A stretch of 64,000 bases of DNA from Gammaproteobacteria bacterium. GTDB taxonomy: Bacteria > Pseudomonadota > Gammaproteobacteria > Pseudomonadales > Cellvibrionaceae. The notes beneath the pieces are model-generated. The model was not told where the DNA came from. It made no database searches and was given only the letters and a program-made list of their open reading frames with translations. Shown one piece after another: positions 19,920 to 41,551 of this stretch (positions are counted from its first letter, which is position 1; each line of letters starts with the position of its first letter). The position numbers and the translations under genes were made by a program. Location of the stretch: NCBI GenBank assembly GCA_004172865.1, contig SEBV01000005.1:1-64000 (forward strand), read 5' to 3'.

Positions 19920-20915
19920 TTATTGCGGTAAAAAATCAAACGAATAATTAATCGTGAATCTTGCAACATTACCCGCAGAGAAATTAATAGATTTAATTTT
20001 CGCTAGAATTTTTGACTCAAGCGCAGGGTTTTTCAATTCGCTCGAAACAATTTCAGCATCCACCACTTGTCCAGTTGGATCTATAACCAATTTAACAACC
20101 ACTTTCCCTTGCAGCGTTGCATCTTCTTTAAGGGCGCGATTGTAAATTGAGAATAAAGTCGCTTTGTATTGCTCCATGACTTTGCGTATTTCTTCTTCGC
20201 TGCGCGCGGCTCCGCCGGCTCCATTGCTATTGCCACCACCGGCAGCCGTTGCGCCTGCAGCTTTTTTACTCGCCTCAGCTAATCCACTTTTCACTTTGGT
20301 AGTTTCGCGACCTGAGAGTGCAACACCACCTACATCATGGCTTGCATAAGCGTTGGGATTAATTCCTCCGCTCCCTTTAGTCTGACCACTATTTATCATG
20401 GAGCGATCAACTTGCGTAGCTTGACTCGCACCATTGTTCACGGTGGTTGCAGCCGTTTCCACAGCATCAGTTTGCAAGGCTTCGCGCATCTCCATTAAAT
20501 CATCTTTAAAAGTTGAGATCTGTGCTTGTGCTTGCGCTTTTGCATTGGCGACAGCTTCGCTTTTTGCATCAGGATTTTTCGAGCGCTCCACTGGCTTTTC
20601 AGTAGATTTAACCGGAACCGGTGTTTTTTCAACAGGTTTTTCCACCGGCTTTTTTTCTTCCGGTTTCTTTTCTTCTACCTTGGGCGGTTCAATCGGTATT
20701 GGCGGTGGCAATTCCTGTTTCTCAAGCATCACCCGCGCTAACTGCGGTGGCAGTTCTGCCTTTTCTTTGCGCGTCAGCTCCGGCAATTTAATAATTGTCA
20801 TTGGAATTGAAGCGATGAAAAAAATAATAAATGCAGCGATAAGAATTTTTTTAAAACGCTCATCATCGTTGCTAAGCGACCAGGGTAATTGCATAGTTGA
20901 CATAATGTATGTCAT
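19920..20915 (-). CDS. AgmX/TonB-like energy transducer (Agl-Glt-like operon)
   Basis: A 331-residue bitopic protein: short cytoplasmic N-terminus, one membrane helix (about 24-45, IAAFIIFFIASIPMTIIKL), a Pro/Glu/Lys-rich spacer (KVEEKKPEEKKPVEKP) of TonB type, a Gly/Ala-rich stretch, and a C-terminal TonB/AgmX-PglI domain (EQYKATLFSIYNRALKED, GKVVVKLVIDPTGQVVDAEI). Such proteins carry proton-motive energy from an ExbB/ExbD-type motor to the periplasm or outer membrane. It is the last gene of the nine-gene operon, one base after the second ExbD-like gene. It resembles GltJ/GltG of Myxococcus more than the TonB of iron uptake, judged from its partners; that is inference. Confidence 0.82.
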   Translation of the reverse strand: MTYIMSTMQLPWSLSNDDERFKKILIAAFIIFFIASIPMTIIKLPELTRKEKAELPPQLARVMLEKQELPPPIPIEPPKVEEKKPEEKKPVEKPVEKTPVPVKSTEKPVERSKNPDAKSEAVANAKAQAQAQISTFKDDLMEMREALQTDAVETAATTVNNGASQATQVDRSMINSGQTKGSGGINPNAYASHDVGGVALSGRETTKVKSGLAEASKKAAGATAAGGGNSNGAGGAARSEEEIRKVMEQYKATLFSIYNRALKEDATLQGKVVVKLVIDPTGQVVDAEIVSSELKNPALESKILAKIKSINFSAGNVARFTINYSFDFLPQ

Positions 20916-20916
20916 A

Positions 20917-21441
20917 TCAACCTCCCGTTACGGCTTTATTGCTCGCGTCTTTATGCGAAACTGCCAGGGCAATTTTGCGATAATCAGCAGCAACACAAGT
21001 CGCCATAATTTTTTTCAACTGCTCATAGGGAATTGCACGATCGCCTAAAATAGTAACGGGTCGACCTTCCGCTTTTTCCTTTTCATCCAAAGGAGGTGCC
21101 TGACTTGCCAAGACTTTTAATTCATTTTCAAGCGGCGCAAATCGCGATGCTGGATCAGCCATCAATTCAATGATACTACCCACACGTTGACCGGCAACAA
21201 TAATGTCAGTCGAACTTACGGTAATCACAATAGTTTGACCTGGCATGGTGTCTGAAATTGACACAGGCAATTTAATGGATTTATCCGAATTCAACACTTC
21301 TACGTTGGATGAGTAATTAATTAAAAGAAAAAATATCAACAAGGTAAAACAGTCAATCAGTGGCACCAAATTTAAACGGGGCACGTGATTTAAACGCTGG
21401 CGATGTTTTGCCATACGTTTTGCGCGCATGGACATTTTCAT
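20917..21441 (-). CDS. ExbD/TolR-like protein, second paralogue
   Basis: A 174-residue ExbD/TolR family protein, a motor subunit paired with a TolQ/ExbB-type channel. N-terminal basic region, one transmembrane helix with the key Asp in LVPLIDCFTLLIFFLLINYS (Asp about 29), then a periplasmic domain with a central VILGDRAIPYEQLKKIM-type block (VTILGDRAIPYEQLKK). It overlaps the first ExbD-like gene by four bases. Having two different ExbD-like genes after one TolQ-like gene is the Agl (AglQ, AglS) arrangement. The periplasmic loop has an insert (ASQAPPLDEKEKAEGRP). Confidence 0.85.
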   Translation of the reverse strand: MKMSMRAKRMAKHRQRLNHVPRLNLVPLIDCFTLLIFFLLINYSSNVEVLNSDKSIKLPVSISDTMPGQTIVITVSSTDIIVAGQRVGSIIELMADPASRFAPLENELKVLASQAPPLDEKEKAEGRPVTILGDRAIPYEQLKKIMATCVAADYRKIALAVSHKDASNKAVTGG

Positions 21442-21986
21442 GGTTGTCCTCCTTGCGCGCCACTGACTGCTTGCGTTTGTTCTCCGGGTGGAGGTGCATC
21501 GCCCAATGAAACTTCAGGAAATAATTCTGCATTGACCACAGACGTTGCAACCACTGTGCGATAGGAACGCACTGTGTCCATTACGGCAACCAGAGTTTGG
21601 TAATCGGTATTTTTTTCTGACAACAAATAAATATCGCGTTTTTGAATTCCTTTATCAGCCAACTGACGTTTAATTTCTTGCAGATAAAGTGTCAGGTTTT
21701 CGAAATCATATTTTCCACTTGCAGTTTTTTCGATTCGTTTTAAACGAATACCCGCGGGATAATTAATATCAAAATAATCCGGACGAATCACAAGCTCAAG
21801 CTGAGCTGGTGGCTCTACTTGTTCAGCACTCGCAGCGGGAAGATCGGGTAATTTCAAATCCAGCACAGTAATGTGCGATAGCACCATGCCCATCAACAAC
21901 ACAGGCACAAGCACCACAACTAAATTGATAAACGCTGTAACGTCAACGTCAGCGTCTTCGCCATTTCTTTTCAATAATCGGCGCAT
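21438..21986 (-). CDS. ExbD/TolR-like protein, first paralogue
   Basis: A 182-residue ExbD/TolR-like protein. The membrane helix follows a short acidic N-terminus (EDADVDVTAFINLVVVLVPV). The canonical proton-accepting Asp of ExbD (D in LIDIIF-type motifs) is replaced at the helix start by an Asn (FINLVVVLVP), so its proton role may differ from that of the second paralogue. A periplasmic domain follows (YDFENLTLYLQEIKRQLADK, YQTLVAVMDTVRSYR). It lies 53 bases after the TolQ-like gene. Confidence 0.8.
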   Translation of the reverse strand: MRRLLKRNGEDADVDVTAFINLVVVLVPVLLMGMVLSHITVLDLKLPDLPAASAEQVEPPAQLELVIRPDYFDINYPAGIRLKRIEKTASGKYDFENLTLYLQEIKRQLADKGIQKRDIYLLSEKNTDYQTLVAVMDTVRSYRTVVATSVVNAELFPEVSLGDAPPPGEQTQAVSGAQGGQP

Positions 21987-22039
21987 TTTGGTTTTACCTC
22001 TAACCTACAATTATTTGGTTTTATCAATTCGAACCACAA

Positions 22040-22714
22040 TTATTGTTTGGCTGGGTTATTTTCAGAACGTTGTTTTGCGACTAAATCTTGTGCGTGGGTT
22101 AAAATATTCATGCATTTCACGCCAGCCATTTCAAGGCTGTCGACAATTTCAAGGGTGCGACTTTGAATCATGGCGTGACTGAGTAAAAGTGGAATTGCCG
22201 TGAACAAACCGAATGCTGTTGCGTTCATGGCTACCGCAATACTCGCTGATAACAGCGCTGCTTTTTCTGAAGGGTCAGCATTGGCAACCGCACCAAATGC
22301 TTCACTCAAACCGGAAATAGTACCAAGCAAACCTAACAAGGTTGCAACGTTGGCAAGAGTTGCCAAATAGCCAGTGCGGCGCTCTAAACGCGGCACAGCT
22401 TCCATTACACCCTCTTCCATTGCTAATTCAATATCTTCGCGACGGCTTGACTGCGCCATACGCTGCAAACCTGCGCTGATAATTTTTGCGACTGGCGCTT
22501 CGGAAGATTTACCGATATTCAGCGCGCCCTGATAATCTTTTTTCTGCAGCAATGCGAGAATACGATCAAATGCATCGCGATTCGATTTTTTGGCTTTCGC
22601 CAAAAATATAAAGCGCTCAATAACAATCGCTGCGCCTACTATTAAAATCGCGCCGATTGGAAACATAAAAATGCCTCCGTCTTGAAAGAAGCGAATAATG
22701 CCTGCTGTAGTCAT
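22040..22714 (-). CDS. MotA/TolQ/ExbB-like proton channel subunit
   Basis: A 224-residue channel protein with three transmembrane segments (about 18-38, 118-138 and 160-180), including YLATLANVATLLGLLGTISGLSEAF and ATAFGLFTAIPLLL, the TolQ/ExbB signature. It forms the channel of a proton-driven motor with ExbD-type partners. Its gene starts 51 bases after the small exported protein and precedes both ExbD-like genes. Orthology to AglR of Myxococcus as opposed to ExbB or TolQ is inferred from the neighbourhood, not from the sequence alone. Confidence 0.88.
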   Translation of the reverse strand: MTTAGIIRFFQDGGIFMFPIGAILIVGAAIVIERFIFLAKAKKSNRDAFDRILALLQKKDYQGALNIGKSSEAPVAKIISAGLQRMAQSSRREDIELAMEEGVMEAVPRLERRTGYLATLANVATLLGLLGTISGLSEAFGAVANADPSEKAALLSASIAVAMNATAFGLFTAIPLLLSHAMIQSRTLEIVDSLEMAGVKCMNILTHAQDLVAKQRSENNPAKQ

Positions 22715-22765
22715 AGGGTTTTCCTCTACACAAAATTAAAAATATGGGTTGACTGTTTTTAAAAA

Positions 22766-23170
22766 TTATTTCTTTTCGTCGGAGCTTTCTAACTCGCGGC
22801 GCAACTCTTCTCTTTCAATATGGCCGAACACTGCTTTTTGTTCATTATCCAGTGATTCAAAATCTACGTTGCCTGCCATGGGTGACTGCCAGGGTAAAAT
22901 ATAAAGGACGCGTGGCTGTTCCTGATTTCCGGTGACCGTTGTTTGCAAACTAATGCTGGCGTCCTGCACCATTTTTTTTGCAGGTGTTGCCTTATCAGTT
23001 CCACTTATCTGCGTGTTATCTGGGGTATTAGCAACTAGCGCAGGTTGAGTTTGCGCATCCACTTTTTTATCAGCTATTACAGGTGCTGAGCTTTGTGCAA
23101 AAGATTCAGCTGTAATTAGCATCGCAAGGCTTGCAAAAAATACTGCGAATCGCGAATGAAAATTGCGCAT
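22766..23170 (-). CDS. Small exported protein of the Agl-Glt-like operon
   Basis: A 134-residue protein of unknown family. Residues 1-25 form a signal peptide (FAVFFASLAMLITAESFA, cleavage before Gln-Ser-Ser). The middle is Thr/Ala/Lys-rich and looks disordered. The last 50 residues contain a short motif (PRVLYILPWQSPMAGNVDF) and an acidic helix (LDNEQKAVFGHIEREELRRE). It follows the TPR lipoprotein by one base and precedes the TolQ-like gene. No function can be assigned beyond membership in this operon. Confidence 0.7.
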   Translation of the reverse strand: MRNFHSRFAVFFASLAMLITAESFAQSSAPVIADKKVDAQTQPALVANTPDNTQISGTDKATPAKKMVQDASISLQTTVTGNQEQPRVLYILPWQSPMAGNVDFESLDNEQKAVFGHIEREELRRELESSDEKK

Positions 23171-23171
23171 A

Positions 23172-23906
23172 TTATTTAGCCTCTGCTTTATCAGTTGCTT
23201 TGCCCGAATTTACCCGGCGCTGCACTTCTGCAACCCAACTATCCACCTGTTTATCGGGCGCTGCCAATAATTGTTGGTAGGCTTGATAATGCGGTAAGGC
23301 TTGCTCAGGTTTACTTAAGTACAGATCATACAAAATCGCAATGTTTTTATGGCCTTCAGGATAAAAAGGCCAAATTGCCAACGCTTTTTGGTACAAACTT
23401 TCAGCGGCGGTAAAATCACCGGCTTCGCGTTTCAACACCGCCAAGTGATTATAGGCGTCTACATTTTTAGGATTGGCCGCTATGGCGCGATTAAATGCGT
23501 CAGCTGCTTTCTCGTTATCACCTTTGTTACGATAAACAATACCCAGGTTTAAAAAGACACCCGAAAGTTTTGGATTTTTTTCTGCCAACTGTTTCAACGT
23601 TGCTTCAGCGTGATCCCAATTTTTTTGTTGGATCGCGTTTACCGCATCGTAAAAACTAACTTGCACTTGATCATTCAATTTTTGCGGATTTTGCAAGTAG
23701 GGATTCGGAGTCACCGGGCCTGCAGGTAAAACTGAAGTCGGAATATCTGCTTTCGGTTTCGCAGGAGCTTCGCCTTCACCAGATTTATTTTCCGTTATTG
23801 GTTTTTCAATAAATTTATTATCTGCCGGTTTTTCAGGTGCAGAGCCGCAGGCGCTCACTAACAATGACATCACAAAAAGTGCAAGCAATGGCTTATTGAA
23901 TTTCAT
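23172..23906 (-). CDS. TPR lipoprotein
   Basis: A 244-residue outer-membrane-type lipoprotein: the signal MKFNKPLLALFVMSLLVSAC ends with Cys20 in a lipobox, then Gly at +2. After a Lys/Glu/Pro linker come three to four tetratricopeptide repeats (for example VFLNLGIVYRNKGDNEKAAD, then DAYNHLAVLKREAGDFTAAE), from about residue 80 to 220. TPRs act as docking surfaces, so it is likely a scaffold of the envelope complex. It overlaps the larger TPR lipoprotein gene by 14 bases. Confidence 0.83.
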   Translation of the reverse strand: MKFNKPLLALFVMSLLVSACGSAPEKPADNKFIEKPITENKSGEGEAPAKPKADIPTSVLPAGPVTPNPYLQNPQKLNDQVQVSFYDAVNAIQQKNWDHAEATLKQLAEKNPKLSGVFLNLGIVYRNKGDNEKAADAFNRAIAANPKNVDAYNHLAVLKREAGDFTAAESLYQKALAIWPFYPEGHKNIAILYDLYLSKPEQALPHYQAYQQLLAAPDKQVDSWVAEVQRRVNSGKATDKAEAK

Positions 23907-26763
23907 TGCTCACCTCCGATACTGATTCAGATTTTTTATAACGCGCGGGCAATAAAGTTGCCAGAGCTTCAAAGCTTTGCTTGACCCATTGGTCGTAAAT
24001 ACCTTTGGTGGTTCGCTGCGCATTAGCTTGATGAATTTGGATAGCTTTTTCTTCGAAAGGCGTAGCTTGCTCTTCCAATAATAAATCGTATTGTTCAAGC
24101 GCAAGCGCATCCAAATCTTTCGGGCGTTCGGACTTCATTAAGTCGCGACTCAACTGAGCGTAAATATCGCCAATGCGATAACTTGCTTGCGTCGTAAATT
24201 CTGCAACACCGTACGCGAGTACAACTTCTTGCGCTTTGAGCGCTTTATCCAAAGCTGCACGCTTTACTTTCAAACTTTGTTTTAACGGCAAGGTGAGCGG
24301 CGTACTCGCGAATTCTTTATAAGGCGCGTCGGCAATTTCATTGGCAGCAGAAGCGGCTAAATATTTGGTGCGATCATTAGCTTGTGCACCTGCCGATGCA
24401 TTTGCATCAATCATGCGCTGCAACCAGTACTGACGTTTGCTGTTATCTTTCAACTCGCCATAGAGTTGCGCTAAATGCAATTCTGCTTCCATGGCTTCGG
24501 CAACTGGCCGTGGATATTCATTGGCGTAGCGTTGATATTGTTCAATCGCCAAGGTTTTGTTGCCCGATTTTTCATACAGCTCCGCACCCATCGCCAGGGA
24601 TTGGCGTTTAACATTGGGATCGTTACTGCTGCGTTCCATAATGCTCAACTCACTAGCGGCCAATGCCCACTTGCTTTGGTTTTGATAAATTAAAACCAGT
24701 TTCGCAGGAATAGATGCGGTGAGTTCGTGCTTGGGATATTGCTGGCGGAAACTTAAATAAACTTGTTCGGCTTCAGACCATTTTTGTTGCTCGATTAAAT
24801 AAACGCCCGCATCGTAACGACCTTTAATGGCGATATCGCTATCAGGCGCAACGTCAGAGATGCGCAATAGTTTCGCAATAGCCTGATCTTTTTGACCCAA
24901 ACTCAAATCACTTTGCGCTTGCTGATAAATACTGGCGGCAATGCGATCACGCATTTGTTGTGCAGTAGGCGCGCCCGGTGTTTGTGCATTGGCTGGCAAT
25001 AGGGTCAAAACCTGCCAATAAGCTTTTTCAGCACCGGCATAATTTTTATCATCAAAATTACTATGGCCTAACACCAACCATGCAGTGAATTGCAATTTCG
25101 GTTCTGCTGGCGGTTTTAAATTAATAATTTCTTCAGCGACTGTGGCAGCTTCAGCAAAACGTTTTTGATTAAGCAATTCTTGCGCAGCTTGTGTGAGTAC
25201 CGCGGCAGCGCGTGGATCAGCAGGATAGCCCTGGGCAAATTTTAATGCGTAATTGGTTTTACGCTCTTGCCAAGCGGCTTTTTGTGTTTCGGCCAGTAAT
25301 TGCCCCGTTGCTAATTCGTTCGCCAAGAGCACAATTGAATAACCTGCATCAGCACCGTGTTCTTTATCCTGATATTGATAGGCAACTTGTTCGTAAGCGT
25401 TGATGGCTTGCGGATAATCGCCCGACTCACTTAAAGATTCAGCAAGCAAAAACGTCATCTCGGAATTTTTTGGATCTTTTGGGAAAGTGGCAACAAATTC
25501 GCGATACCAATTTGCGGCGCGACTAAACGACGCTCTGGATTCGGTTTTATTCGTAACCGCTAATTCCTGCGCTTGCGCGTGTTCAAACTCGGCCAATTCT
25601 TGTAAGGATTTATGCAAATAATTTAACGCGTTTACACCAACTAGCCCGTTACGCTGAGTCCAATAAGTGCTGCTGATACCGTAGCGTTGAATATATTCCT
25701 GCTTCGCTGGCAAAATTAAACTGGGGAAATTGCCCTGCTCATAAACGCTGATCATTTTGATCGAAAATTCAGGCGCATAATCACTTAGGGGATTATGCTC
25801 TACAAAACTTTTATAAGTTTCGGCGCTATCGCTAAAGCGTTTTTTATCGAGATAAAGTTGACCTAAATTTTCGTAGAGCAAATGTTCGTAAACGCGATCA
25901 CCCATTTCCTTTTGCAAATCGATAATCGACTGCGCGCCTTCTAGGTACGAAAACGACAAACTCATTACGTGGAAAGTATCTTCCATCATATTTTTTTGCG
26001 CACCGGACAAACGTTCAACAGCGCCTGCAAGTTGATCTGGCTTTTTCGCAGAGACGAGTAGTTGATCAGTAACTTTCGCAAAGGACTGCAACGCCGAATC
26101 GTAATCGGCACGTTTGAATTCCGCCCAGCCTTGCATGTACAGTGCATTTTGTTGCAGGGGATTGTTTTTATCTTCCGCTACACTTTGGTAATGTTTTTCA
26201 GCGGCGAGATAATCGCCATCCGCAAAGGCTTTTTCAGCGCGACGGAATTGAGTTTCGCCCATGTAAGTGGAAGCAGGCGCGGTTTTCGCTAATTGATCAA
26301 GCGCACTGGCGGCTTCATCGCCACGGCTATCCATGGATAAAGCTTTCGCTAATTTGTAGCGTAATTGATCCAGCTCTACGCCTTTAACCGGCTGACCGGA
26401 TTTTTCTTGCAACGCAATAAGTTCGCGATAGAGCACGATGGGCTTATCAAAATAATGACCTGAATCATTAGCATTTAATTGCTGCTGTTCACTGCGCGCC
26501 ATTTCAAAATCCGCGATGCGCGCCATAATTTGTTGGCGTAATACAGGATCTTCAGCTGAAGCCAATGCTTTTTGATAACTTGTTTCTATCTTATTGTTGT
26601 CGACGATAGCGACAGTATTTTTTGCATCCGGCATAACCGCACTGGGAAGATCAGCAAGAGTTTTTCCCTGATGATTGTCGCCGCCAAACATGTGGCAACC
26701 TGCCAATAAAAAACTGGTGCAAATTAAGGGAGAAGTGCGCGCAAGCCAGGCAATTTTTTTCAT
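23893..26763 (-). CDS. Large TPR lipoprotein
   Basis: A 956-residue lipoprotein: signal with lipobox FLLAGC (Cys23), then TPR-like helical repeats over almost the whole length (for example FRRAEKAFADGDYLAAEKHY, QNALYMQGWAEFKRADYDSA, LYLDKKRFSDSAETYKSFVE). It resembles the periplasmic TPR scaffolds of Glt-type complexes in size and architecture, though direct homology cannot be shown here. The ATG overlaps the stop of the previous gene (ATGA). No enzymatic motif is visible. Confidence 0.8.
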   Translation of the reverse strand: MKKIAWLARTSPLICTSFLLAGCHMFGGDNHQGKTLADLPSAVMPDAKNTVAIVDNNKIETSYQKALASAEDPVLRQQIMARIADFEMARSEQQQLNANDSGHYFDKPIVLYRELIALQEKSGQPVKGVELDQLRYKLAKALSMDSRGDEAASALDQLAKTAPASTYMGETQFRRAEKAFADGDYLAAEKHYQSVAEDKNNPLQQNALYMQGWAEFKRADYDSALQSFAKVTDQLLVSAKKPDQLAGAVERLSGAQKNMMEDTFHVMSLSFSYLEGAQSIIDLQKEMGDRVYEHLLYENLGQLYLDKKRFSDSAETYKSFVEHNPLSDYAPEFSIKMISVYEQGNFPSLILPAKQEYIQRYGISSTYWTQRNGLVGVNALNYLHKSLQELAEFEHAQAQELAVTNKTESRASFSRAANWYREFVATFPKDPKNSEMTFLLAESLSESGDYPQAINAYEQVAYQYQDKEHGADAGYSIVLLANELATGQLLAETQKAAWQERKTNYALKFAQGYPADPRAAAVLTQAAQELLNQKRFAEAATVAEEIINLKPPAEPKLQFTAWLVLGHSNFDDKNYAGAEKAYWQVLTLLPANAQTPGAPTAQQMRDRIAASIYQQAQSDLSLGQKDQAIAKLLRISDVAPDSDIAIKGRYDAGVYLIEQQKWSEAEQVYLSFRQQYPKHELTASIPAKLVLIYQNQSKWALAASELSIMERSSNDPNVKRQSLAMGAELYEKSGNKTLAIEQYQRYANEYPRPVAEAMEAELHLAQLYGELKDNSKRQYWLQRMIDANASAGAQANDRTKYLAASAANEIADAPYKEFASTPLTLPLKQSLKVKRAALDKALKAQEVVLAYGVAEFTTQASYRIGDIYAQLSRDLMKSERPKDLDALALEQYDLLLEEQATPFEEKAIQIHQANAQRTTKGIYDQWVKQSFEALATLLPARYKKSESVSEVSNEIQ

Positions 26764-28775
26764 TGTGCTTGCTTCCTTAACGCGGTGTCATACAAACGCG
26801 CTACGGCCAAATGCGATTGCGCCAAATAACGGTTCAACCGCTTTTCGTGTGCACTTAATTGTGTATCCACTTTTTCTCTTAATTTTTCAGCGCGAATATC
26901 TACCATGCCGGTGAGATTTTTAAGTTGCGTATCCACTTGAGCTTGTTGAGCTTGGATGCGCGCAAACATAGGTTGCAGATCTTGCCCCGTCGCGGTGATT
27001 ACCTCAACTTTTTCACGATTGGATTTTATATTGGCGATGGCCGCATTCATCTCAGCTGCGGAATTTTCCAACGCAACGAGATTCGCAGGGAAATCTTGCG
27101 CAGCGCGCCACAATAAAATACCGCGTGAAACCCAGAGCCGATCTTCATAGTCGGTAACATCTTGACCATCGGCTTTCATGCGTTCGATAGTATTTGCAGC
27201 GCGTTCTACGGCAGCAAAGCTTTTGCGGGTTTGCTCATCGGCAAGCGCCATATAATCATTATTAGCTTTGATGGTGGCGATGCGTTTAATCAGCGCATCG
27301 CGCTCCTGCTGAATTTTTTCCTGTTTTTCTACTAGGGATTGTTGCGCAAGCTGCTGTTCTTTTTGTTGACGCAACAATTGCTTTTGTTGCAACAACTCAT
27401 TGTAAGCGGTGAGCTTCGGTTGCCATTCCAATAATAATTTTTGTAATTTTAAAAGATCACGTAGATCCAAAACTGCAGTTTGAAAATCATTTTGCGAAAA
27501 CAATTCACGCAAATAAATGGAACGGGTTTTTATAACACTGGTACCGCTAAGTTTTAACCAGTTTTGACCATCATCAGTAATTAACGCAGTGAGCGTGCCG
27601 GGTTCATTTTTCTTTTCAAGTTCACGCAATTCTTCATCTGATACAGGTTTGCTACTGACTAAAGTTAGTAATTCTCCAGCTGTTAATGTCGCGCGCATAT
27701 CGCGCACCAGCGCAATTTCCTGATCCAATAAAGTTTCTGCTTTTTCATATTCACGCAGCGCATCGCCGGGAGCATTTAATTTTTCGTATGCAAACGGTAG
27801 CGCAAGTAAAGCTTCCTGCGCGGCGGGAAATAATAAGCTGCGCTCTTGCAAAACTTGCCAAGGCCTGATGGCATCCGCATATTTTTCTTGCGCAATCGCA
27901 GCCCAACCGTAACCTAACAATGCTTGATTGGATTCAATACCATCCAAACGAACTTTGCGAAATTCTTCAATAGCGGCGAGATAACTTTTATCGTGTAAAT
28001 AGGTGTAGCCAATAGCTGTATGCGCTTTGTCGAGCAGCGTTAAATATTCGAGACGCGAACTATTATCCTCATCAAACGAAAGTTCTGTTAATTGATTAAA
28101 GTATTCTTTGGCGGCAGTCATATCGCCGTTGCGGGCGTTGGCAGCACCTAAATTGTAAAGTGCGTAGGGCTCCCACTGCGCCAGCTTATCTTTTTCAATT
28201 TTTCTGATACTAAAAGGCGCAAGATCATTTTGTTTAATTTGTAAGTTGATTTGCAGTGAATGCATTTCGGCCAACAAATCCACATTAAATTTTTCGCTGA
28301 CGCGACTAAAACTTGTACCTGCCGCAGCCCATTCGCCGCGGGCGTATTGTAATTTTCCGAGATAAAACCAGGCGGCATCGCGCACATTTTGCGGACGACT
28401 TTGATCTTGCAATAGATGATTGAATAATTCTTCGGCGTGATTTTGCATCCCGAACGCGAGACTTAGACCGCCCGCAATTAATTCAGGATTATTGCCGTGA
28501 CCATGAATGCCATCGCGCGCATCGGCAACCATAAGTTCGGCGATAGCCGGAATATATTCTTGCTGATAATAATGATAAAGCGCTACACCGTAGCGTAAAT
28601 CGGCAACTTCGGTTTTTGGTTTTTCAGCGGCTATTGCTGTGCTGATTGGCAAGGCAATGCACATCGCCAGTAGCGATGTTTGCAATAGTTTGCGAGCGCG
28701 AGTCGCCGGTTTATGCAGCCGCGCGGCGCTATATGATTCCACGAGGAATTGCATCATAGCTACTCGGCTTTCCAT
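26760..28775 (-). CDS. Exported TPR and coiled-coil protein
   Basis: A 671-residue exported protein. The signal peptide sits behind an unusually long N-terminal part (RKLLQTSLLAMCIALPISTAIAA, cleavage about residue 48), so a later start (ATG ATG at 28757/28754) may be the true one; the one at 28775 overlaps the previous gene by 16 bases. Residues 55-350 hold TPR repeats (GVALYHYYQQEYIPAIAELM, AWFYLGKLQYARGEWAAAGT); the rest has long Gln/Lys/Glu-rich coiled coils (LLQQKQLLRQQKEQQLAQQS). Second gene of the operon. Confidence 0.8.
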   Translation of the reverse strand: MESRVAMMQFLVESYSAARLHKPATRARKLLQTSLLAMCIALPISTAIAAEKPKTEVADLRYGVALYHYYQQEYIPAIAELMVADARDGIHGHGNNPELIAGGLSLAFGMQNHAEELFNHLLQDQSRPQNVRDAAWFYLGKLQYARGEWAAAGTSFSRVSEKFNVDLLAEMHSLQINLQIKQNDLAPFSIRKIEKDKLAQWEPYALYNLGAANARNGDMTAAKEYFNQLTELSFDEDNSSRLEYLTLLDKAHTAIGYTYLHDKSYLAAIEEFRKVRLDGIESNQALLGYGWAAIAQEKYADAIRPWQVLQERSLLFPAAQEALLALPFAYEKLNAPGDALREYEKAETLLDQEIALVRDMRATLTAGELLTLVSSKPVSDEELRELEKKNEPGTLTALITDDGQNWLKLSGTSVIKTRSIYLRELFSQNDFQTAVLDLRDLLKLQKLLLEWQPKLTAYNELLQQKQLLRQQKEQQLAQQSLVEKQEKIQQERDALIKRIATIKANNDYMALADEQTRKSFAAVERAANTIERMKADGQDVTDYEDRLWVSRGILLWRAAQDFPANLVALENSAAEMNAAIANIKSNREKVEVITATGQDLQPMFARIQAQQAQVDTQLKNLTGMVDIRAEKLREKVDTQLSAHEKRLNRYLAQSHLAVARLYDTALRKQAQ

Positions 28776-29380
28776 TCTTTAATTTGAAAAGTTGGTTGCA
28801 ATTCTGCCGATGAATCGATGATTTTTAATTCGAGAACAAGTGGAGTTTGCGCTTTGTTAACAATCAACTTGGCGCCGCGTTTGTAATCTTGCTCCGGGCC
28901 GCGACCGGTGAAAAATGCGCTGATTTCATGTTCACCGGTTTTTAAATTGCCAATATATAAACGCTGCACGCCACCGCGAAACAGGGCGCTGATTTGTTTA
29001 TCTGTATAGAGTTCGCTCGCAACCAATTTATTGTCGATTTCAAGTTTGACGGCATCAAGATTGAAAAACTGACCGAGATCCATCGATAAATAAACCGCAA
29101 CTTGGTTACTCGGCGGATACAACAATTCTTCTTCAAGGATCAACAGATCACGATTGAGATTGAGTACAGAGACTTTTAAATTTTCTACCTGCGGAGTTAC
29201 TGCAGGTTGCTGAACGGATTCAACTGGAGTGGTTGATGTTGGACGCGGAGCCGCTGGTGCAGTTACCGCCGGGCTGCTGCTGGAAGCCGCAGGCACTGAC
29301 TCTTGCGCGACTACTAGACTGCTGATGCAGAGTGAAAAAATAAATCCCAACAGCGGTAATTTTACCGATTGAATGAACAT
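28760..29380 (-). CDS. Exported protein, first gene of the Agl-Glt-like operon
   Basis: A 206-residue protein with a signal peptide (LPLLGFIFSLCISSLVVAQ, cleavage about residue 26), then a Ser/Pro/Ala/Thr-rich segment to about 62 and a folded C-terminal part with beta-rich pattern (VYLSMDLGQFFNLDAVKLEI, GVQRLYIGNLKTGEHEISAF). It has no family I recognise; the carboxyl part reads like a small Ig-like or carbohydrate-binding-like beta domain, which is speculation. First gene after a 252-base gap, in which I found no clear promoter. Confidence 0.75.
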   Translation of the reverse strand: MFIQSVKLPLLGFIFSLCISSLVVAQESVPAASSSSPAVTAPAAPRPTSTTPVESVQQPAVTPQVENLKVSVLNLNRDLLILEEELLYPPSNQVAVYLSMDLGQFFNLDAVKLEIDNKLVASELYTDKQISALFRGGVQRLYIGNLKTGEHEISAFFTGRGPEQDYKRGAKLIVNKAQTPLVLELKIIDSSAELQPTFQIKEWKAE

Positions 29381-29632: not shown

Positions 29633-30640
29633 TCAAGGTGGCGTTAAACCTTTGCTATAGAGAACTTTGCCTGTTTCGGTGATAACAACTGCATCAAAAC
29701 CGGGCAAACTATCAATCAACGCCAGCCCTTTTTCCGAGCCCATAATGAAAATGGTTTTGGTAAGCGGATCGGTATCGAAACCCTGAGGGCCAATCACGCT
29801 GACGCTAATAATGCCGTGGGGTGACTTTCCGGTTTTGGGATTTATGATGTGATGAACGCGTTGCCCATCTTTATCGATAAAAAACCGCTCGTAATCGCCC
29901 GAGGTTGAGATAGCGCAGTTTTCCAGTGGCAAGGTAATCGCCACGGCATTTTTATCATCGGCGCGTGGATTGCGGATGCCGACCAACCAGGGTTTACCAA
30001 GTTTGTCACCGATAACTCGACTATCCCCACCAGCGCTAACATTCGCATTAGTAATGCCGAATTTGCGCAAAATCTCCGCGCCGCGATCAACCGCAAAACC
30101 TTTGGCGATTCCGCCCAAATCTATGTAGACCTTGGGGTGATCAAAATAAACCGTGTTGTTTTTGGCATCGAGGTGGATAAATTTGTAGTTAATCTGCGGC
30201 ACGAGTTCTTTGAATTGTTCATCAGTCGGCTTCAAACCTTTACGGTAATCGTAATAACGCGCGAGGGATGCAAAGGTGATATCGAAAGCGCCGCCACTCA
30301 ATTCGCTGTAGTGATTTGCTTTTTGGATGATGCTTGCCAATTCTGCTGAAATCGGCATGGGATGGGCAGCAGTGGACTTGGGGGCGAGATCATTAACACG
30401 AGAGAGTTCGCTGGTGGGAATAAACGGGCTGTATTGCTGATCGATGCGATGCATTTCGGCCATGACGGCGGCTATGGCTTCTTTGGCTTTGGCATCATCT
30501 TCATGAAAAAGCGTAACGTTGATGACGGTGCCCATAATATTTTGAGTATCGCCATGCCAGCCTGCGTAAGCCGGTATAACCGAGAGATTCAGGATGCACA
30601 AACAGACTGCAATCAGCTTTTTCACGAAAATTCCTAACAT
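29633..30640 (-). CDS. apbE: FAD:protein FMN transferase ApbE
   Basis: Attaches FMN covalently to Thr/Ser of target flavoproteins, using FAD. 335 residues with a signal peptide (LIAVCLCILNLSVIPAYA), so periplasmic. Family blocks: YSPFIPTSELSRVNDL, GGAFDITFASLARYYDYRKG, VYIDLGGIAKGFAVDRGAE (FAD binding), VSAGGDSRVIG, and HHIINPKTGKSPHG with PLTKTIFIMG (metal and catalytic region). It lies 25 bases after gspN, so it may be the last gene of the secretion operon, and 252 bases before the Agl-like operon. No obvious target such as Nqr or FMN-binding proteins is nearby. Confidence 0.93.
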   Translation of the reverse strand: MLGIFVKKLIAVCLCILNLSVIPAYAGWHGDTQNIMGTVINVTLFHEDDAKAKEAIAAVMAEMHRIDQQYSPFIPTSELSRVNDLAPKSTAAHPMPISAELASIIQKANHYSELSGGAFDITFASLARYYDYRKGLKPTDEQFKELVPQINYKFIHLDAKNNTVYFDHPKVYIDLGGIAKGFAVDRGAEILRKFGITNANVSAGGDSRVIGDKLGKPWLVGIRNPRADDKNAVAITLPLENCAISTSGDYERFFIDKDGQRVHHIINPKTGKSPHGIISVSVIGPQGFDTDPLTKTIFIMGSEKGLALIDSLPGFDAVVITETGKVLYSKGLTPP

Positions 30641-30665: not shown

Positions 30666-31469
30666 TTAGAAGTTCAAATCCACCAGATATACCAGATTGC
30701 CTTGCGCATCGTTAGCTTGCGGCACGGCAAACATCGACAACCAGGCGCTGGCATTTAACTCGCGAAAATAAGGCTCGGGTAACGAGAGACCACCTTTAAC
30801 GCTACCGCCGGTTGGAAATGGCAGAGTTGCAACCAGATCCAAATGCACTGGGCTATTTATATCCATAATATGTGCGGTTAAACCCTTCTTTCCGTCATCG
30901 ACCAGATCAGCACCGACGCCACCGAGAGACATCCAGTTTGAGCCGTTATAGATTTTTACATTCATCCAACTGGCCTTGCCGCGTATGGCGAGTAATTGGC
31001 TGTTTTCTATTTCCAGCTTTTCCAGTACCAAACCGAGTTGTCCATCAATTGCGAGCGGCAACAGCGGCTGCACTAATACGGCAGGGAAGCTCGCATTAGC
31101 ATTTCTTACAGTGATGCCAGTTTTGCCTTTGAAGCACACAGTGCCATCAAATTGCTGATTATCCATTTGGGTAGTAATCAGCGCGCAGGGCTTGAGGGTA
31201 AACAGTGAGAGGATTTGCAGCTTCCAGGTAAGTTGACCCAACGAGTGGTCAGCACCTTTAATTTTTACACTCACGAGACTGGCGCGGCCTGTCCATAGAG
31301 TGCCGGAAACACCGCTCATGGCGAGATCGCCGCTGCGCGTTAATGCGTAAGCGCCCCAGATTGCGGGCAAATTGCTGATCACAAAATACAGCCAGACAAT
31401 AACACCCAGAGTGATCCAGAATTTTTTACTCGCATTTAGTTGCGGCAGAGCCACGGCTGGAGAAATCAT
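30666..31469 (-). CDS. gspN: Type II secretion system protein N
   Basis: A 267-residue inner-membrane protein with one N-terminal helix (WITLGVIVWLYFVISNLPAIW) and a periplasmic body with the GspN features (LGQLTWKLQILSLFTLKPCA, FPTGGSVKGGLSLPEPY). It is a variably present, accessory component of the secreton. Last gsp gene of gspCDEFGHIJKLMN, 40 bases after gspM. Confidence 0.85.
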   Translation of the reverse strand: MISPAVALPQLNASKKFWITLGVIVWLYFVISNLPAIWGAYALTRSGDLAMSGVSGTLWTGRASLVSVKIKGADHSLGQLTWKLQILSLFTLKPCALITTQMDNQQFDGTVCFKGKTGITVRNANASFPAVLVQPLLPLAIDGQLGLVLEKLEIENSQLLAIRGKASWMNVKIYNGSNWMSLGGVGADLVDDGKKGLTAHIMDINSPVHLDLVATLPFPTGGSVKGGLSLPEPYFRELNASAWLSMFAVPQANDAQGNLVYLVDLNF

Positions 31470-31509
31470 CTACGAATTAACCTTTTTATGTATTTGTTGC
31501 TCTGCTGCA

Positions 31510-31989
31510 TTATGGCTTGGCGAGACGGACGTTAACGGAAACCTGGCCGGGATCGTTGGCGGCGGTAATCGATAACTCGCGAATGACGATGTGGTATTTG
31601 GTTTCAAGATCGTACAGCCATTGCATCAAGGTTTCGGATGCAACTTTATCAACCCGCACGCGCGCTTCACCGCCAGTGCCGGGCGTAAAACTGCCCATGG
31701 TCATGCCGTTATCGCGCAGGCTGGAATCGATTAAACCGCTGATATCGCCGGATGCATTAACCTGACTGGATTGCTTGCTCAAGATTTCGTATTGCTTCGC
31801 CAACAACTGCACTTTACCTAGAGTTTGTTGATTGCTTTCGGTGGTTTTGAGCAGCGAATCACGCTTATTGTTCAAGGGTGATAAGACCGCAAGCCAGATA
31901 ATGTAGAAAACAATTAGCAATGCACCTATGAGCAAGGTCATTTGCTCGCGACGATTAAATTGGGAAAGTGAATTCAGTAATTTATCCAT
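31510..31989 (-). CDS. gspM: Type II secretion system protein M
   Basis: A 159-residue assembly-platform protein. Basic N-terminus, a membrane helix (TLLIGALLIVFYIIWLAVLSP), a coiled-coil stretch (LLKTTESNQQTLGKVQLLAK) and a C-terminal ferredoxin-like domain (VASETLMQWLYDLETKYHIV). It partners with GspL. It starts 17 bases after gspL. Confidence 0.9.
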   Translation of the reverse strand: MDKLLNSLSQFNRREQMTLLIGALLIVFYIIWLAVLSPLNNKRDSLLKTTESNQQTLGKVQLLAKQYEILSKQSSQVNASGDISGLIDSSLRDNGMTMGSFTPGTGGEARVRVDKVASETLMQWLYDLETKYHIVIRELSITAANDPGQVSVNVRLAKP

Positions 31990-32006
31990 GATATTTATCT
32001 CGCAGC

Positions 32007-33302
32007 CTATCGTTGTGGCTTGGTGATTTTGATACGGCCGGTGTTGATATCACCCTGCGCGTTGGCCGTTAGCAGTTCGGCCGTAAAACCTTGTGCACTG
32101 ATGGATTGGCGCAGCGCATCGATAGTATTGAATGAATGCGCTTGAACATTAATAGACATTTCGCCGGTGTCTGCCGAGTAGGAAATCACTTTGACGGTGA
32201 CATCTGGATTCACCGCCACAATCGGTAACACGCCGGAAAACATCGCAGTTACACTGCCGGATTGTGTTTTTGGTTGCAGCTGTTGTAGCTTCAAGCGCAG
32301 ACGCTTTTCAGGATCATCCGATTGACCATTGGGCATTACGCTGCGATAGGTAGCTTCCATCTGCTGGCGCAGCTGCAAATTTTGTTTATTGAGTTTGTAG
32401 ATATTAAAGCCGAGCACGCCGACGTAAACCACGAAAGTGATCAGCGCTAGAATTCCAACGTCGCGCCAGAGTTTCATCCAACGCTCCAACGGCAAACGTT
32501 GCGAGAATTCTGCCTGGCATAAATCTATAGCTCTACCGTCATAATCCAGTTGCCATTGATCAACGAGTACTTGCGCGCTAACGCGCTCAGCCAACAGCTC
32601 GGGGAGATTTTTATAAAGTGCATCCAACTCCTCTTGATCATTTGCGCGCAGTACCAGATAGGGCAAATTATCCCCAACTTTTTGTGCTGAAATAAGCAGA
32701 TCAAGCGCTGGAGACAATAGCGGCAATGGCACGCTAAAACCTTCCTGCTCTGCAAATCGCAAATTTACCTGACCATTTTCCAACCCTACAACCCAGGTTG
32801 CGAAAGGAATGGCGCTGAGATTTGCTTCTGCAGCTTCGGTTTCTAACAAAGTTGGTTCGAGCGGTTCTTGCGAAGCAGGTGCTTGCAGGGGTAACAGTAA
32901 CGGTGTGGACCAGCAGCGAGTGATCTCTACACCAATATTGGCGAACTGGTTGAAGATAGCTTTAAGCCATTGCTTATCCGTGTAAGCGAGAGTGACTTTA
33001 CCCGCAGTTGGTGTGCCGAGCGCTACATGTAAATCGTCGATATCGCCAACAATAGATTCTTCAAGCTGGAACGGCAGTAAGTTACGTAGATGCTTCTTTT
33101 CTTTTTCGGTGTATTCCAACTCACGAGTAACGACTTTTGCACCGGGTAATAACAACCACGCTTGCTGGCCTACATTACCGAGCACGGCGCGCAGGGCATC
33201 CAAACTGCCGGATGCTTCAGATTGCGCCTGGCCGCCGTTAAGCCAGCACCAACGGAAATTATCTGCGGTGCTATTAATTGACACTACTAATTGTGAGGAC
33301 AT
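32007..33302 (-). CDS. gspL: Type II secretion system protein L
   Basis: A 431-residue platform protein linking the GspE ATPase to the membrane. The cytoplasmic actin-like N-terminal part (VARELEYTEKEKKHLRNLLP-like block, here VVTRELEYTEKEKKHLRNL) runs to about residue 275, a membrane helix follows (VGILALITFVVYVGVLGFNIY), then the periplasmic domain (LRLKLQQLQPKTQSGSVTAM). The start ATG at 33302 is preceded by AAGG; just upstream is the tandem repeat described at 33313-33350. Confidence 0.93.
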   Translation of the reverse strand: MSSQLVVSINSTADNFRWCWLNGGQAQSEASGSLDALRAVLGNVGQQAWLLLPGAKVVTRELEYTEKEKKHLRNLLPFQLEESIVGDIDDLHVALGTPTAGKVTLAYTDKQWLKAIFNQFANIGVEITRCWSTPLLLPLQAPASQEPLEPTLLETEAAEANLSAIPFATWVVGLENGQVNLRFAEQEGFSVPLPLLSPALDLLISAQKVGDNLPYLVLRANDQEELDALYKNLPELLAERVSAQVLVDQWQLDYDGRAIDLCQAEFSQRLPLERWMKLWRDVGILALITFVVYVGVLGFNIYKLNKQNLQLRQQMEATYRSVMPNGQSDDPEKRLRLKLQQLQPKTQSGSVTAMFSGVLPIVAVNPDVTVKVISYSADTGEMSINVQAHSFNTIDALRQSISAQGFTAELLTANAQGDINTGRIKITKPQR

Positions 33303-33312
33303 GAAACCTTAC

Positions 33313-33350
33313 CTGAGGTTGTTCTTGTAGCCTGATGTTGTTCTTATAGA
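33313..33350. repeat. 19-base tandem duplication upstream of gspL
   Basis: CTGAGGTTGTTCTTGTAGC (33313-33331) followed immediately by CTGATGTTGTTCTTATAGA (33332-33350), 16 of 19 identical. It fills most of the 86-base gap between gspK and gspL, the only sizeable gap between consecutive gsp genes. Confidence 0.75.
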
Positions 33351-33388
33351 TTGCGCCGCGCCGATCCTGATCCGCTTAACACAATCGC

Positions 33389-34429
33389 TTAAAAAGTACC
33401 TTCTTCGCGTCGAACCACTTTAAATATCGGATTACCGCGTAATAATAAGCTGCGGCCTATACGGCGCTGATCGCCAATTTCAGCCAAACTCGTCAACCAA
33501 AAATACTTGGTATTAACGGTCAATTCTTTATCCACACCACCGCCGGAAGCACCATTTACTTTGTTCCAAGAGGTATCAAAGTCACCGATACTGGCGTAAT
33601 AGCCAACTCGCGGTGTTTCCGCTTTTAGAGCACTGGCCTGACTTTCGGACAGCGGCGTTAAATCGGTACTGACATTGATACAACGAAACAGCACTTCATC
33701 CATGGTATTAATATTTAAACGCTCGCCGGGCTCCAGTGCAGTCAAATAAGGGCGTAGAGCCCTCATAATCGCCGGCGTTACACCGCGCACCATCTGCAAT
33801 TCTTCAATACTGCGAAACGGCATATTAGCTGCCTGATAAGGATCGGGCTGGCTGAGATAATAATCGTCTTCCGCACCACCGGCTCCCGACGGAGTTTTAT
33901 CTATGTCGGTCCAATCTACTATAGCTTCCAATATAGCCACGGCTTGATCGGGCGATGAAACTATAGGTGTATGTGGATCTTCAGGCACCGTAAGCGTTTG
34001 CAACAAGCGTATAAACATGCGCTGACTAGGGGTGTAGCGCGTCGATTCAAGCGCGCCTTTTGCCGGGTCCAACACCCCCACCACACTGTTCAAATTAAAC
34101 TGACTATTGGCATCTTTGATCGTTATCAGCAAAGTACCCATGTTATCGGGCAAGGCCACCGGAACTTCGGTTCCCCAAAGTTCGGTTGGATAGTCAACTT
34201 CTGGAGGATCAGTCGCCATAAACTTGATGGCCGCACCCTCACCGCTAAATAAATAAGCTCGCGCTTGTGCGCCGCTCCACCGAGCCTCTGCTCGTGTTAA
34301 ACCTAATTGATAATCGCCCGCAAACTTGATGCCCAAGCCAGCCACCAAGGCGACTATCAGTAGCACCATAATCAGCACGGCGCCGGACTGCAATTTCTTA
34401 CCGTTGGGGGATTTCAAATAGCCGCACAC
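33389..34429 (-). CDS. gspK: Type II secretion minor pseudopilin K
   Basis: A 346-residue pseudopilin at the tip of the pseudopilus. The prepilin leader is short and basic (NGKKLQSG) with cleavage before AVLIMVLLIVALVAGLGIKF. The large globular domain contains the usual DWTDIDKTPSGAGGAEDDYY calcium-binding-type block and RSIEELQMVRGVTPAIMRAL (SAM-like helices). A GTG at 34427-34429 with AGG upstream is used as the start; it overlaps gspJ by 32 bases. A TTG 12 bases later is an alternative. Confidence 0.9.
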   Translation of the reverse strand: MCGYLKSPNGKKLQSGAVLIMVLLIVALVAGLGIKFAGDYQLGLTRAEARWSGAQARAYLFSGEGAAIKFMATDPPEVDYPTELWGTEVPVALPDNMGTLLITIKDANSQFNLNSVVGVLDPAKGALESTRYTPSQRMFIRLLQTLTVPEDPHTPIVSSPDQAVAILEAIVDWTDIDKTPSGAGGAEDDYYLSQPDPYQAANMPFRSIEELQMVRGVTPAIMRALRPYLTALEPGERLNINTMDEVLFRCINVSTDLTPLSESQASALKAETPRVGYYASIGDFDTSWNKVNGASGGGVDKELTVNTKYFWLTSLAEIGDQRRIGRSLLLRGNPIFKVVRREEGTF

Positions 34430-35084
34430 TGCTGCCTACCCCCTCAACTTCAATGGTAATCTCAAGTGCAATCGGCATAGCCGCGCTGCCAGTTGCATTT
34501 ACCGGTGGCCAGATTGACTCCCAGCTTTTGCTGTATTCGGAGCCTTCCAACACGCTTTTACCATCGGCTTTAATGCGAGCATCCGACAAAAAACGCAGTT
34601 GCACGTCGGTCACATTTTCAAGTAAGAGCTGATGAAACGCATCGCGCTCAAAATCCACGTTTTCTAAAGGAACATTACGCTCAGGTAAGTAATCCCGCCA
34701 TAACCTGCCCTCCGCAACGCGATAATTCACTTGCTGTAAATCACTGCGCACACGCCCCAAAGGGTTAACCCAGCCTCGACGCGCAAAAAACATAATCAAT
34801 TGAAACGTTTCTTTGCCTTTGGTTTTTTGGCTGGCCGCATCAAACCGGACTTGGGGATTCGCCATTTGCGCATTGATCGGCACTATGTTGCGCATATCCT
34901 GCCCAATCAACTGCCAGGCTTTATCCAATTTATTAACACCCGCCAAAACTTCGCGGGTGCGTTCAGCATTGCGGCTTGCGCCATCAAAGGATTGATAAGC
35001 CATAGCCGCAACCATGGCGGACAAGCCAATGGCAACCACCATTTCCAGCAGGGTGAAACCCTTTTGGTTGCGAGCCCTATTCAC
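34398..35084 (-). CDS. gspJ: Type II secretion minor pseudopilin J
   Basis: A 228-residue pseudopilin. The leader MNRARNQKG is cut before FTLLEMVVAIGLSAMVAAMA, a typical type IV pilin-like N-terminus with Glu5. The rest is the GspJ fold (AWQLIGQDMRNIVPINAQMA, FFARRGWVNPLGRVRSDLQQ). Overlaps gspI by 8 bases and gspK by 32, consistent with stoichiometric coupled translation of the tip complex I-J-K. Confidence 0.93.
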   Translation of the reverse strand: MNRARNQKGFTLLEMVVAIGLSAMVAAMAYQSFDGASRNAERTREVLAGVNKLDKAWQLIGQDMRNIVPINAQMANPQVRFDAASQKTKGKETFQLIMFFARRGWVNPLGRVRSDLQQVNYRVAEGRLWRDYLPERNVPLENVDFERDAFHQLLLENVTDVQLRFLSDARIKADGKSVLEGSEYSKSWESIWPPVNATGSAAMPIALEITIEVEGVGSSVRLFEIPQR

Positions 35085-35532
35085 TCATAAACCCCGTCAA
35101 ATGCGCGATGGGGTCTACTTTTTCCAAATCTTTAACGCCGCTGAAATTGCCACCTCCGGCCAAGCCCAGCACCGCAACATCAATATCAAGCTTTACAATA
35201 CCGGGGACTGGAATTTCTTCGGCGGCGGAGGTTTCAAACTTCCATTGCCATTGCAGGCCCAACATTTCACTTCTGCCAGAATCTTTTCCAGCCATTTTGT
35301 AGTTCGGAAATAGTTCTTTGTTGTTCAAAATGGTTAAACGCGTTAACTGATTTTCAGCTATCCACATCGCGTAAGTCTTATTGCGAATGTGCGCTGCGCC
35401 GTCAATTTGCGTCATCACCAAAATCACCAGCGCGGGCAGCGCCATGGCGACAATCATTAGCGCGACCATAACTTCAACCAGTGTAAAACCTTTGGCCGAG
35501 GGTCTATTAAATTGGCGCGCTCTAACGAACAT
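35077..35532 (-). CDS. gspI: Type II secretion minor pseudopilin I
   Basis: A 151-residue pseudopilin. I start it at the ATG at 35530-35532 (MFVRARQFNRPSAKG, cut before FTLVEVMVALMIVAMALP), which has AAGGA nine bases upstream; the longer in-frame version would overlap gspH deeply. The globular domain has YAMWIAENQLTRLTIL and LGLQWQWKFET. The start overlaps the end of gspH by 11 bases. Confidence 0.92.
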   Translation of the reverse strand: MFVRARQFNRPSAKGFTLVEVMVALMIVAMALPALVILVMTQIDGAAHIRNKTYAMWIAENQLTRLTILNNKELFPNYKMAGKDSGRSEMLGLQWQWKFETSAAEEIPVPGIVKLDIDVAVLGLAGGGNFSGVKDLEKVDPIAHLTGFMSE

Positions 35533-36115: not shown

Positions 36116-36121
36116 CGAAAA

Positions 36122-36595: not shown

Positions 36596-36634
36596 ATCTA
36601 CTCCTGAGACATTAATTAAAAGCCTCGCTTGCGA

Positions 36635-37873: not shown

Positions 37874-37883
37874 GATCTAGCCT

Positions 37884-39449: not shown

Positions 39450-39455
39450 TCACCT

Positions 39456-41537: not shown

Positions 41538-41551
41538 CGCACATCCTCACT

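Follow-up and report, generated by a model that had tools for sequence, protein, structure and literature searches.

The nine-gene cluster

The window analyzed here is a stretch of 64,000 nucleotides from a genome of the family Cellvibrionaceae (assembly GCA_004172865.1, contig SEBV01000005.1, positions 1 to 64,000), and it carries at 19920-29380 a cluster of nine minus-strand open reading frames (ORFs) that is the subject of this report (Table 1). A preliminary description of the sequence had listed these nine genes, and they were confirmed: neighbouring genes are separated by no more than 53 bases (the widest gap running from 21986 to 22040) or overlap by no more than 16. Gene starts are mechanical calls; the products were scored against Pfam and NCBIfam family models at the curated cut-offs.

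Table 1. Genes of the cluster and the adjoining apbE gene
Feature	Position	Strand	Properties
GltG-like transducer, 331 aa	19920..20915	-	one transmembrane helix, Pro-rich linker, AgmX/PglI (TonB-like) C-terminal domain
ExbD-type subunit with proton aspartate (D30), AglS place	20917..21441	-	PF02472 57 bits (cut-off 25.4)
ExbD-type subunit without proton aspartate (N21), AglQ place	21438..21986	-	PF02472 51 bits (cut-off 25.4)
AglR-like proton-channel subunit	22040..22714	-	PF01618 MotA_ExbB 97 bits (cut-off 22.9)
sml134, small exported protein, 134 aa	22766..23170	-	conserved G-x-x-E-Q-P...P-W motif
GltE-like TPR lipoprotein, 244 aa	23172..23906	-	TPR models; NF033758 GltE 40 bits, under cut-off 225
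GltD-like TPR lipoprotein, 956 aa	23893..26763	-	TPR models; lipobox Cys 23
GltC-like exported TPR and coiled-coil protein, 671 aa	26760..28775	-	TPR models, weaker than on the 244- and 956-aa proteins
bet206, exported protein, 206 aa	28760..29380	-	long helix and transthyretin/Ig-like beta-sandwich
ApbE flavin transferase	29633..30640	-	PF02424 263 bits; upstream of bet206, same strand

The GltG-like protein matched the AgmX/PglI C-terminal domain model NF033768 at 72.3 bits (cut-off 40) and the GltG model NF033760 at 41 bits, far under its equivalog cut-off of 650; the Pfam scan returned a weak TonB_C match only and no FHA match. Its transmembrane stretch, assigned by hydrophobicity, lacks histidine in 88 of 94 sequences. 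The lipobox cysteine of the GltD-like protein was invariant across 19 sequences. Neither sml134 nor bet206 matched a family in the Pfam or NCBIfam scans. The motif pattern of sml134 was present in 83 of 108 sequences. bet206 had been described as an exported beta-rich protein, and this holds: its predicted structure (mean pLDDT 83) comprises a signal helix, a single long helix and a beta-sandwich of eight strands.

Relationship to the Agl-Glt core complex

The window genes are a homologue of the Agl-Glt core that is already in print; this kinship rests on the family models and on Luciano et al., whose trees group proteins of relatives with those of Myxococcus xanthus (PMC3169522). In 2011, those authors described aglRQS together with gltC, gltD, gltE and gltG as one gammaproteobacterial cluster of unknown function, which includes a further gene for which Myxococcales and Bdellovibrionales have no homologue and is duplicated in Marinobacter, Teredinibacter and Saccharophagus (PMC3169522); a 2013 paper repeats this account (PMC3858216). 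The gammaproteobacterial gene sets mentioned in the preliminary description are thus in print, and because this core complex has been published since 2011 the gene set itself is not new.

The window shows the features of that core: a distinct TolQ-type channel, two different and conserved ExbD-type subunits side by side, a bitopic GltG with an AgmX/PglI domain, and TPR proteins GltC, GltD and GltE clustered with the motor. Tol-Pal and TonB-ExbBD share with it the TolQ/ExbB and ExbD families and a TonB-like domain, but differ from it in that the window has two different ExbD subunits, a channel that stands apart in the tree, and scores far under the equivalog cut-offs. The AglR-like protein reached 69 bits against the TolQ model (cut-off 221), compared with 288 bits for the genome's own TolQ, coded elsewhere, and the channel and ExbD-type proteins failed the TolQ, ExbB, TolR and ExbD equivalog cut-offs. 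In a tree, 51 cluster AglR proteins (the window and 50 hand-picked loci) were split with support of 100/98 from 8 further channel proteins coded in the genome, subject to program warnings on long branches and unsettled bootstrap; of the 11 channel regions that the genome has besides the cluster, three, two of them MotA-type, gave no match to the AglR profile and lie outside the tree.

The Agl-Glt (gliding) and Agl-Nfs (sporulation) machines of Myxococcus xanthus have in common with the window set a two-ExbD motor, an AgmX/PglI transducer, TPR proteins and outer-membrane barrels, and one motor there can serve several Glt-like complexes (PMC3858216, PMC9389320, PMC4488436). The present set differs from them in a GltG without FHA, the addition of bet206 and sml134, a heme-motif payload, and one ExbD without the aspartate. 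Compared with the core of Luciano et al., nine conserved genes are recognized here (two additional) and three types are separated, of which type I comes with an outer-membrane redox module, OMP_myx_plus barrels and an ApbE of its own; the available part of that paper mentions none of the three for these bacteria.

Conservation of gene order

A GltC-like relative was found in 104 of 120 genomes of the family, and a bet206 profile match in 90 of 377 genomes of the class. We read 120 loci (numbered with L; genomes with G), comprising 20 from the family plus 100 out of 114 further places listed for the class. For the genes found, a single order, bet206-GltC-GltD-GltE-sml134-AglR-ExbD-ExbD-GltG, was present in 120 of 120 loci, and all nine genes were found in 79; the cluster is therefore not a chance assembly. 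sml134 is a conserved ninth gene, its position being identical in 20 of 20 family loci. The preliminary description had named two observations that would speak against a homologous machine, a channel grouping with TolQ/ExbB and TPR genes without a conserved neighbourhood in relatives. Neither was found.

Seventeen of the 120 loci lack the motor half despite at least 4 kb of further sequence in the locus. In the remaining incomplete loci (41 minus 17), the locus edge was reached, gltC and gltD lay in one ORF, or one gene had no profile match. Twelve of the 17 motor-less loci lie in eleven genomes where another locus that was read carries motor genes, and an AglQ-type ExbD was found elsewhere in the other five genomes. 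This ExbD type was sought in eight genomes and was present in seven, with none in G171. The motor-less loci recall the Myxococcus Nfs complex, which uses the AglRQS motor. Such copies comprise bet206, GltC, GltD and sometimes GltE and sml134 (for example L111, L117, L119, L120, L123, L125, L127, L128 and L129); most are preceded by genes of the partner operon described below, with the motor elsewhere in the genome. GltC and GltD are apparently one long ORF (about 1350-1535 aa) in L153, L156, L158, L161, L164, L171, L177 and L179.

A partner operon coding for putative outer-membrane redox proteins

In many loci of the class, six genes in fixed order precede the core, coding for an HzsA-like giant protein, an SH3+barrel protein, a barrel, a thioredoxin-like protein, DUF4266 and DUF3570. 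The genome of the window has the same six genes in the same order on another contig (L187:8762-20000, G000:C218). There the HzsA-like protein (HZS_alpha/PD40) has a lipobox-like start and two CXXCH motifs, and the thioredoxin-like protein is TlpA/ResA-like with CGPC. DUF4266 is a CxC lipoprotein (78 bits, cut-off 27), and DUF3570 scored 107 bits (cut-off 25). The barrel beside the SH3 barrel matched TIGR04565 OMP_myx_plus at 149 bits (cut-off 60), which we take, from the model name only, to point to myxobacteria. Divergently coded at the same site are a PSD2-like protein (one CXXCH), a LamG lipoprotein (two CXXCH) and a third protein whose start is of the Tat type.

The six-gene order was identical in 20 of 20 family DUF3570 loci fetched, including that of the own genome. 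Profile matches in the 100 class loci numbered 29 for DUF3570, 28 for OMP217, 27 for SH3OMP, 24 for DUF4266, 22 for HzsA-like and 21 for ApbE. On the strand of bet206, DUF3570 lies no more than 2.5 kb upstream in 26 of the 120 loci, and apbE no more than 1.2 kb upstream in 29 as well as in the window, where the distance is 252 bases. The six genes are joined on a single strand ahead of a full core in, for example, Marinobacter sp. (L273), Aliiglaciecola (L238, L239), Rhizobacter (L285) and Aquabacterium (L271), and ahead of a core without motor genes in Hahella (L222). The chain ends in an aromatic residue, a feature of outer-membrane barrels, in 49 of 50 DUF3570 and 53 of 53 OMP217 proteins.

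The partner operon codes for two small outer-membrane barrels, one of them OMP_myx_plus. GltC of M. xanthus is a binding partner of two barrels in the outer membrane, GltA and GltB (PMC4488436), and the pair of small barrels is therefore the likely contact point for the present core.

Three core types and their payloads

Gene neighbours and the AglR tree sort the 20 family loci into type I (12 loci), type II (6 loci: L036, L037, L041, L043, L050 and L051) and type III (2 loci: L047 and L052). In type I, apbE adjoins bet206 in 10 of 12 loci, lies further off in L045 and is absent from the stretch of L049. The giant proteins of type I contained one to three CXXCH motifs in 20 of 20 cases (L187-L206), a count that omits those cut by the locus edge. 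The giant proteins of type II contained none in five of five (the L037 copy is cut by the locus edge).

In type II, genes for an SH3+barrel and an OMP barrel protein lie near the core in five of six loci, and a giant protein is coded downstream in five of six. Four of these giant proteins were scanned; PKD domains were found in all four, PA14 in three and VWA in one. In L036, L041, L050 and L051 the giant PKD/PA14/VWA protein follows the core, with the SH3+barrel and barrel genes on the opposite side; these loci are possible adhesin machines. In type III, DUF11 giant proteins of at least 1446 and 1576 aa, both truncated where the locus ends, are coded downstream, and GltG is longer (459 and 457 aa). 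Type III-like cores with a GltG of about 450 aa were seen in L047, L052, L131, L133, L135, L136, L138, L142 and L144, most with a downstream giant protein family of the DUF11 type. Within the stretches read, neither DUF3570 nor ApbE occurs in types II and III; redox is therefore not a general function of the core.

Joint occurrence of core and partner

Type I-like cores were defined in the class by a bet206 score of at least 195 bits, at a gap in the scores, and in the family by a GltC E-value of at most 1e-38, both thresholds being set after the scores were seen; only one (G005) of the seven family genomes with weaker GltC matches was read. The divergent DUF3570 set comprises scores under 146 bits among the matches listed. 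By these definitions, 52 of the 376 other class genomes had both the type I core and divergent DUF3570 (among the matches listed), 2 the core only, 7 DUF3570 only and 315 neither (Fisher P about 2e-53, uncorrected for kinship). All 54 type I-like genomes carried some DUF3570. Among the matches listed, six of the seven genomes with divergent DUF3570 and no type I-like bet206 had a lower-scoring bet206. OMP_myx_plus exceeded its cut-off in 60 of the 376 genomes, all 60 with bet206 and 53 of them type I-like; for this barrel against any core, the counts were 60 both, 0 barrel only, 29 core only and 287 neither. Two genomes (G241 and G398) with OMP_myx_plus under the cut-off and no bet206 are left uncounted. 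None of 14 control genomes had OMP_myx_plus over the cut-off.

A similar analysis of the 120 family genomes revealed 96 with core and DUF3570, 1 with the core only, 1 with DUF3570 only and 22 with neither. The exceptions are G105 (core only, a 79% complete genome) and G011 (DUF3570 only, of the high-scoring canonical type). Within five genera (g1, g3, g14, g16 and g25), members without the core were also without DUF3570 and the reverse, G105 apart. DUF3570 was also present in 9 of 10 named genomes that were queried. ApbE followed the core: a copy lies at the core in G000 (the genome of the window), G058 and G059, and none does in six genomes without type I. Five of these six (G003, G014, G016, G035 and G041) carry just one copy, located elsewhere. 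The sixth, G093, gave two matches elsewhere, one strong and one weak, and so did G000 in addition to the copy at its core.

Heme and flavin evidence

Meheust et al. described in 2021 flavinylation clusters of ApbE, DUF3570, DUF4266 and thioredoxin, and the same four families are present here, ApbE in the window and the rest in the partner operon (PMC8238504). In contrast to those clusters, the four families are here joined to a core of proton motor and TPR proteins, and DUF3570 belongs to a low-scoring, divergent subfamily. The main text of Meheust et al. contains none of the words TPR, ExbD and gliding (PMC8238504).

At the position expected for the flavin motif [ST]GA[ST], the own DUF3570 has SSAS; the first flavin site of the divergent subfamily is SGAS in some members and SSAS in others. 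The strict motif was found anywhere in 16 of 50 DUF3570 proteins of the set and in 7 of 20 family ones. Flavinylation is therefore doubtful despite the adjoining ApbE, and because the own protein lacks the strict motif we do not file the system as flavinylated. Heme motifs in the partner proteins are thus well supported, and flavin only in part.

A lost aspartate in one ExbD subunit

We examined the proton-aspartate column of the two ExbD-type subunits in 95 sequences, including the window. The first ExbD (AglQ place) had N in 89, S in 4 and D in 2, and the second (AglS place) had D in 95 of 95. In 80 named loci, which partly overlap the first set (the window being counted), the first ExbD had N in 59, S in 7 and D in 3 of 69 sequences, and the second had D in 65 of 65. 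The genome's own TolR reads VPFID at this site, and the two window ExbD proteins VTAFIN and VPLID. Rare cores whose first ExbD keeps the aspartate (L105, L170, L263, L268 and L280) are natural controls.

The simplest reading suggested by these residues is a heterodimeric motor with one proton aspartate. According to a review, AglQ and AglS of M. xanthus both carry the aspartate and it is not known whether they form hetero- or homodimers (PMC9389320); the lost aspartate bears on this question. The AglQ substitution D28N halts the Myxococcus machine (PMC3858216). A one-aspartate heterodimer predicts half the proton-binding sites per motor turn.

A proposed trans-envelope machine and its alternatives

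We propose that a proton-driven trans-envelope machine works an outer-membrane redox platform, a reading on which we regard the case as evenly balanced. The window would code for the inner-membrane and periplasmic half, and the second site in the genome for the outer-membrane half. AglR and the two ExbD proteins, as a heterodimer with one aspartate, would take up protons. GltG would transmit the force, and GltC, GltD, GltE and the two small exported proteins would bridge the periplasm and make physical contact with the outer membrane. The outer-membrane half would consist of the two small barrels, the DUF3570 barrel, the DUF4266 CxC lipoprotein, the thioredoxin-like protein and the HzsA-like lipoprotein with two heme motifs; the divergently coded PSD2-like, LamG and Tat-exported proteins would also belong to it. 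By pulling or turning this platform, the motor may assemble, expose or move heme-type proteins at the surface, which, once loaded with heme, could exchange electrons with something outside the cell. In type II, an adhesin set would be held, exposed or moved in place of redox proteins. A fuller version, in which a rotary-type motor with a heterodimeric one-aspartate axle powers an outer-membrane redox complex of heme lipoproteins and the DUF3570 barrel, so that mechanical work would serve electron exchange outside the cell, and the same chassis is re-used for adhesins (type II) and DUF11 giants (type III), is tentative, and we consider it somewhat more likely to be wrong than right.

The preliminary description had also inferred a homologous machine across the envelope, which stands as the published Agl-Glt core homologue; the jobs that it listed (motility, polysaccharide handling, transport) miss the partner operon, which is the strongest clue. 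This operon would give a core of unknown function since 2011 a concrete job and a second half, and would bring together motor-driven trans-envelope machines and extracytoplasmic heme and flavin redox systems, with one chassis and three payloads. The tie of type I to the partner operon, the PKD/PA14/VWA payload of type II and the one-aspartate ExbD pair appear to be new.

Several observations weigh against the proposal. Genomic association is not proof of contact, core and partner operon are unlinked in the own genome, and seventeen loci have no motor genes. The P values are inflated by the kinship of the genomes, and the type I thresholds followed inspection of the scores. In Marinobacter lipolyticus (L269) a core occurs together with barrels and an HzsA-like protein carrying two CXXCH, but the genome has no DUF3570. 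The flavin motif is altered in the own DUF3570 and absent in its strict form from most of the set, and types II and III lack the DUF3570 and ApbE families within the stretches read.

Some of these points would be expected if core and redox module were simply co-inherited, as marks of one way of life, without acting together: the halves are unlinked in the own genome and in most Cellvibrio-like genomes read, related genomes are not independent, and the M. lipolyticus core exists without DUF3570. The concordant presence and absence inside five genera, where the sole discordant member is 79% complete, the joined gene order in distant lineages, and the way in which an ApbE copy appears and disappears together with the core argue against this, and we consider co-inheritance improbable. 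A better contender, though still an unlikely one, is a machine that secretes or presents giant proteins at the surface in general, with redox proteins as one cargo, comparable to the GldLM motor that drives type IX secretion. Giant exported proteins do accompany each core type (heme-motif lipoproteins in type I, PKD/PA14/VWA proteins in type II, DUF11 repeats in type III); on the other side, the two small barrels seem too small for a protein channel, and DUF3570 is missing from types II and III within the stretches read.

The homologous core and the OMP_myx_plus barrels would also fit a surface gliding machine like that of Myxococcus, in which the partner proteins would be adhesins and outer-membrane anchors. 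The adhesin-like PKD/PA14/VWA giant proteins at type II copies point the same way, as does an M. xanthus VWA adhesin that serves gliding (Islam et al. 2023, as cited in PMC12204202 and PMC11444678). Yet the giant proteins that carry heme motifs are those of type I and not those of type II, GltG has no FHA match, and the genome has two flagellar MotA-type genes over their cut-offs. Luciano et al. concluded that the core genes are not sufficient and are unlikely to drive motility alone (PMC3169522). Gliding is very improbable here, and full Myxococcus-style gliding is not supported; the almost constant pairing of type I with the partner set in the genomes surveyed suggests instead a motor in the service of redox proteins at the surface. 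The least probable of the explanations considered is a TonB-like importer, in which GltG would open the DUF3570 barrel for a metal or nutrient and the heme-motif proteins would be the releasing reductases. The TonB-like C-terminal domain of GltG and the ferrous iron transporter in some DUF3570 clusters (Meheust et al., PMC8238504) are consistent with it. Against it, no plug or TonB-dependent receptor match was found among the core and partner proteins scanned, and the transmembrane stretch of GltG mostly lacks the histidine that TonB and TolA need (PMC12204202). The cluster also includes three large TPR proteins. Such proteins are not known as parts of Ton systems, which we count against an importer.

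Neighbouring genes

Directly upstream of apbE, the window carries type II secretion genes at 30666-42547 (Pfam T2SSN, M, L, F, E, secretin and T2SSC). Such genes adjoin the core in 6 of the 120 loci, all from Cellvibrionaceae. Genes of one GGDEF-domain cluster lie near the core in L044, L045, L154, L156, L161, L162, L163 and L173, a possible link to cyclic di-GMP.

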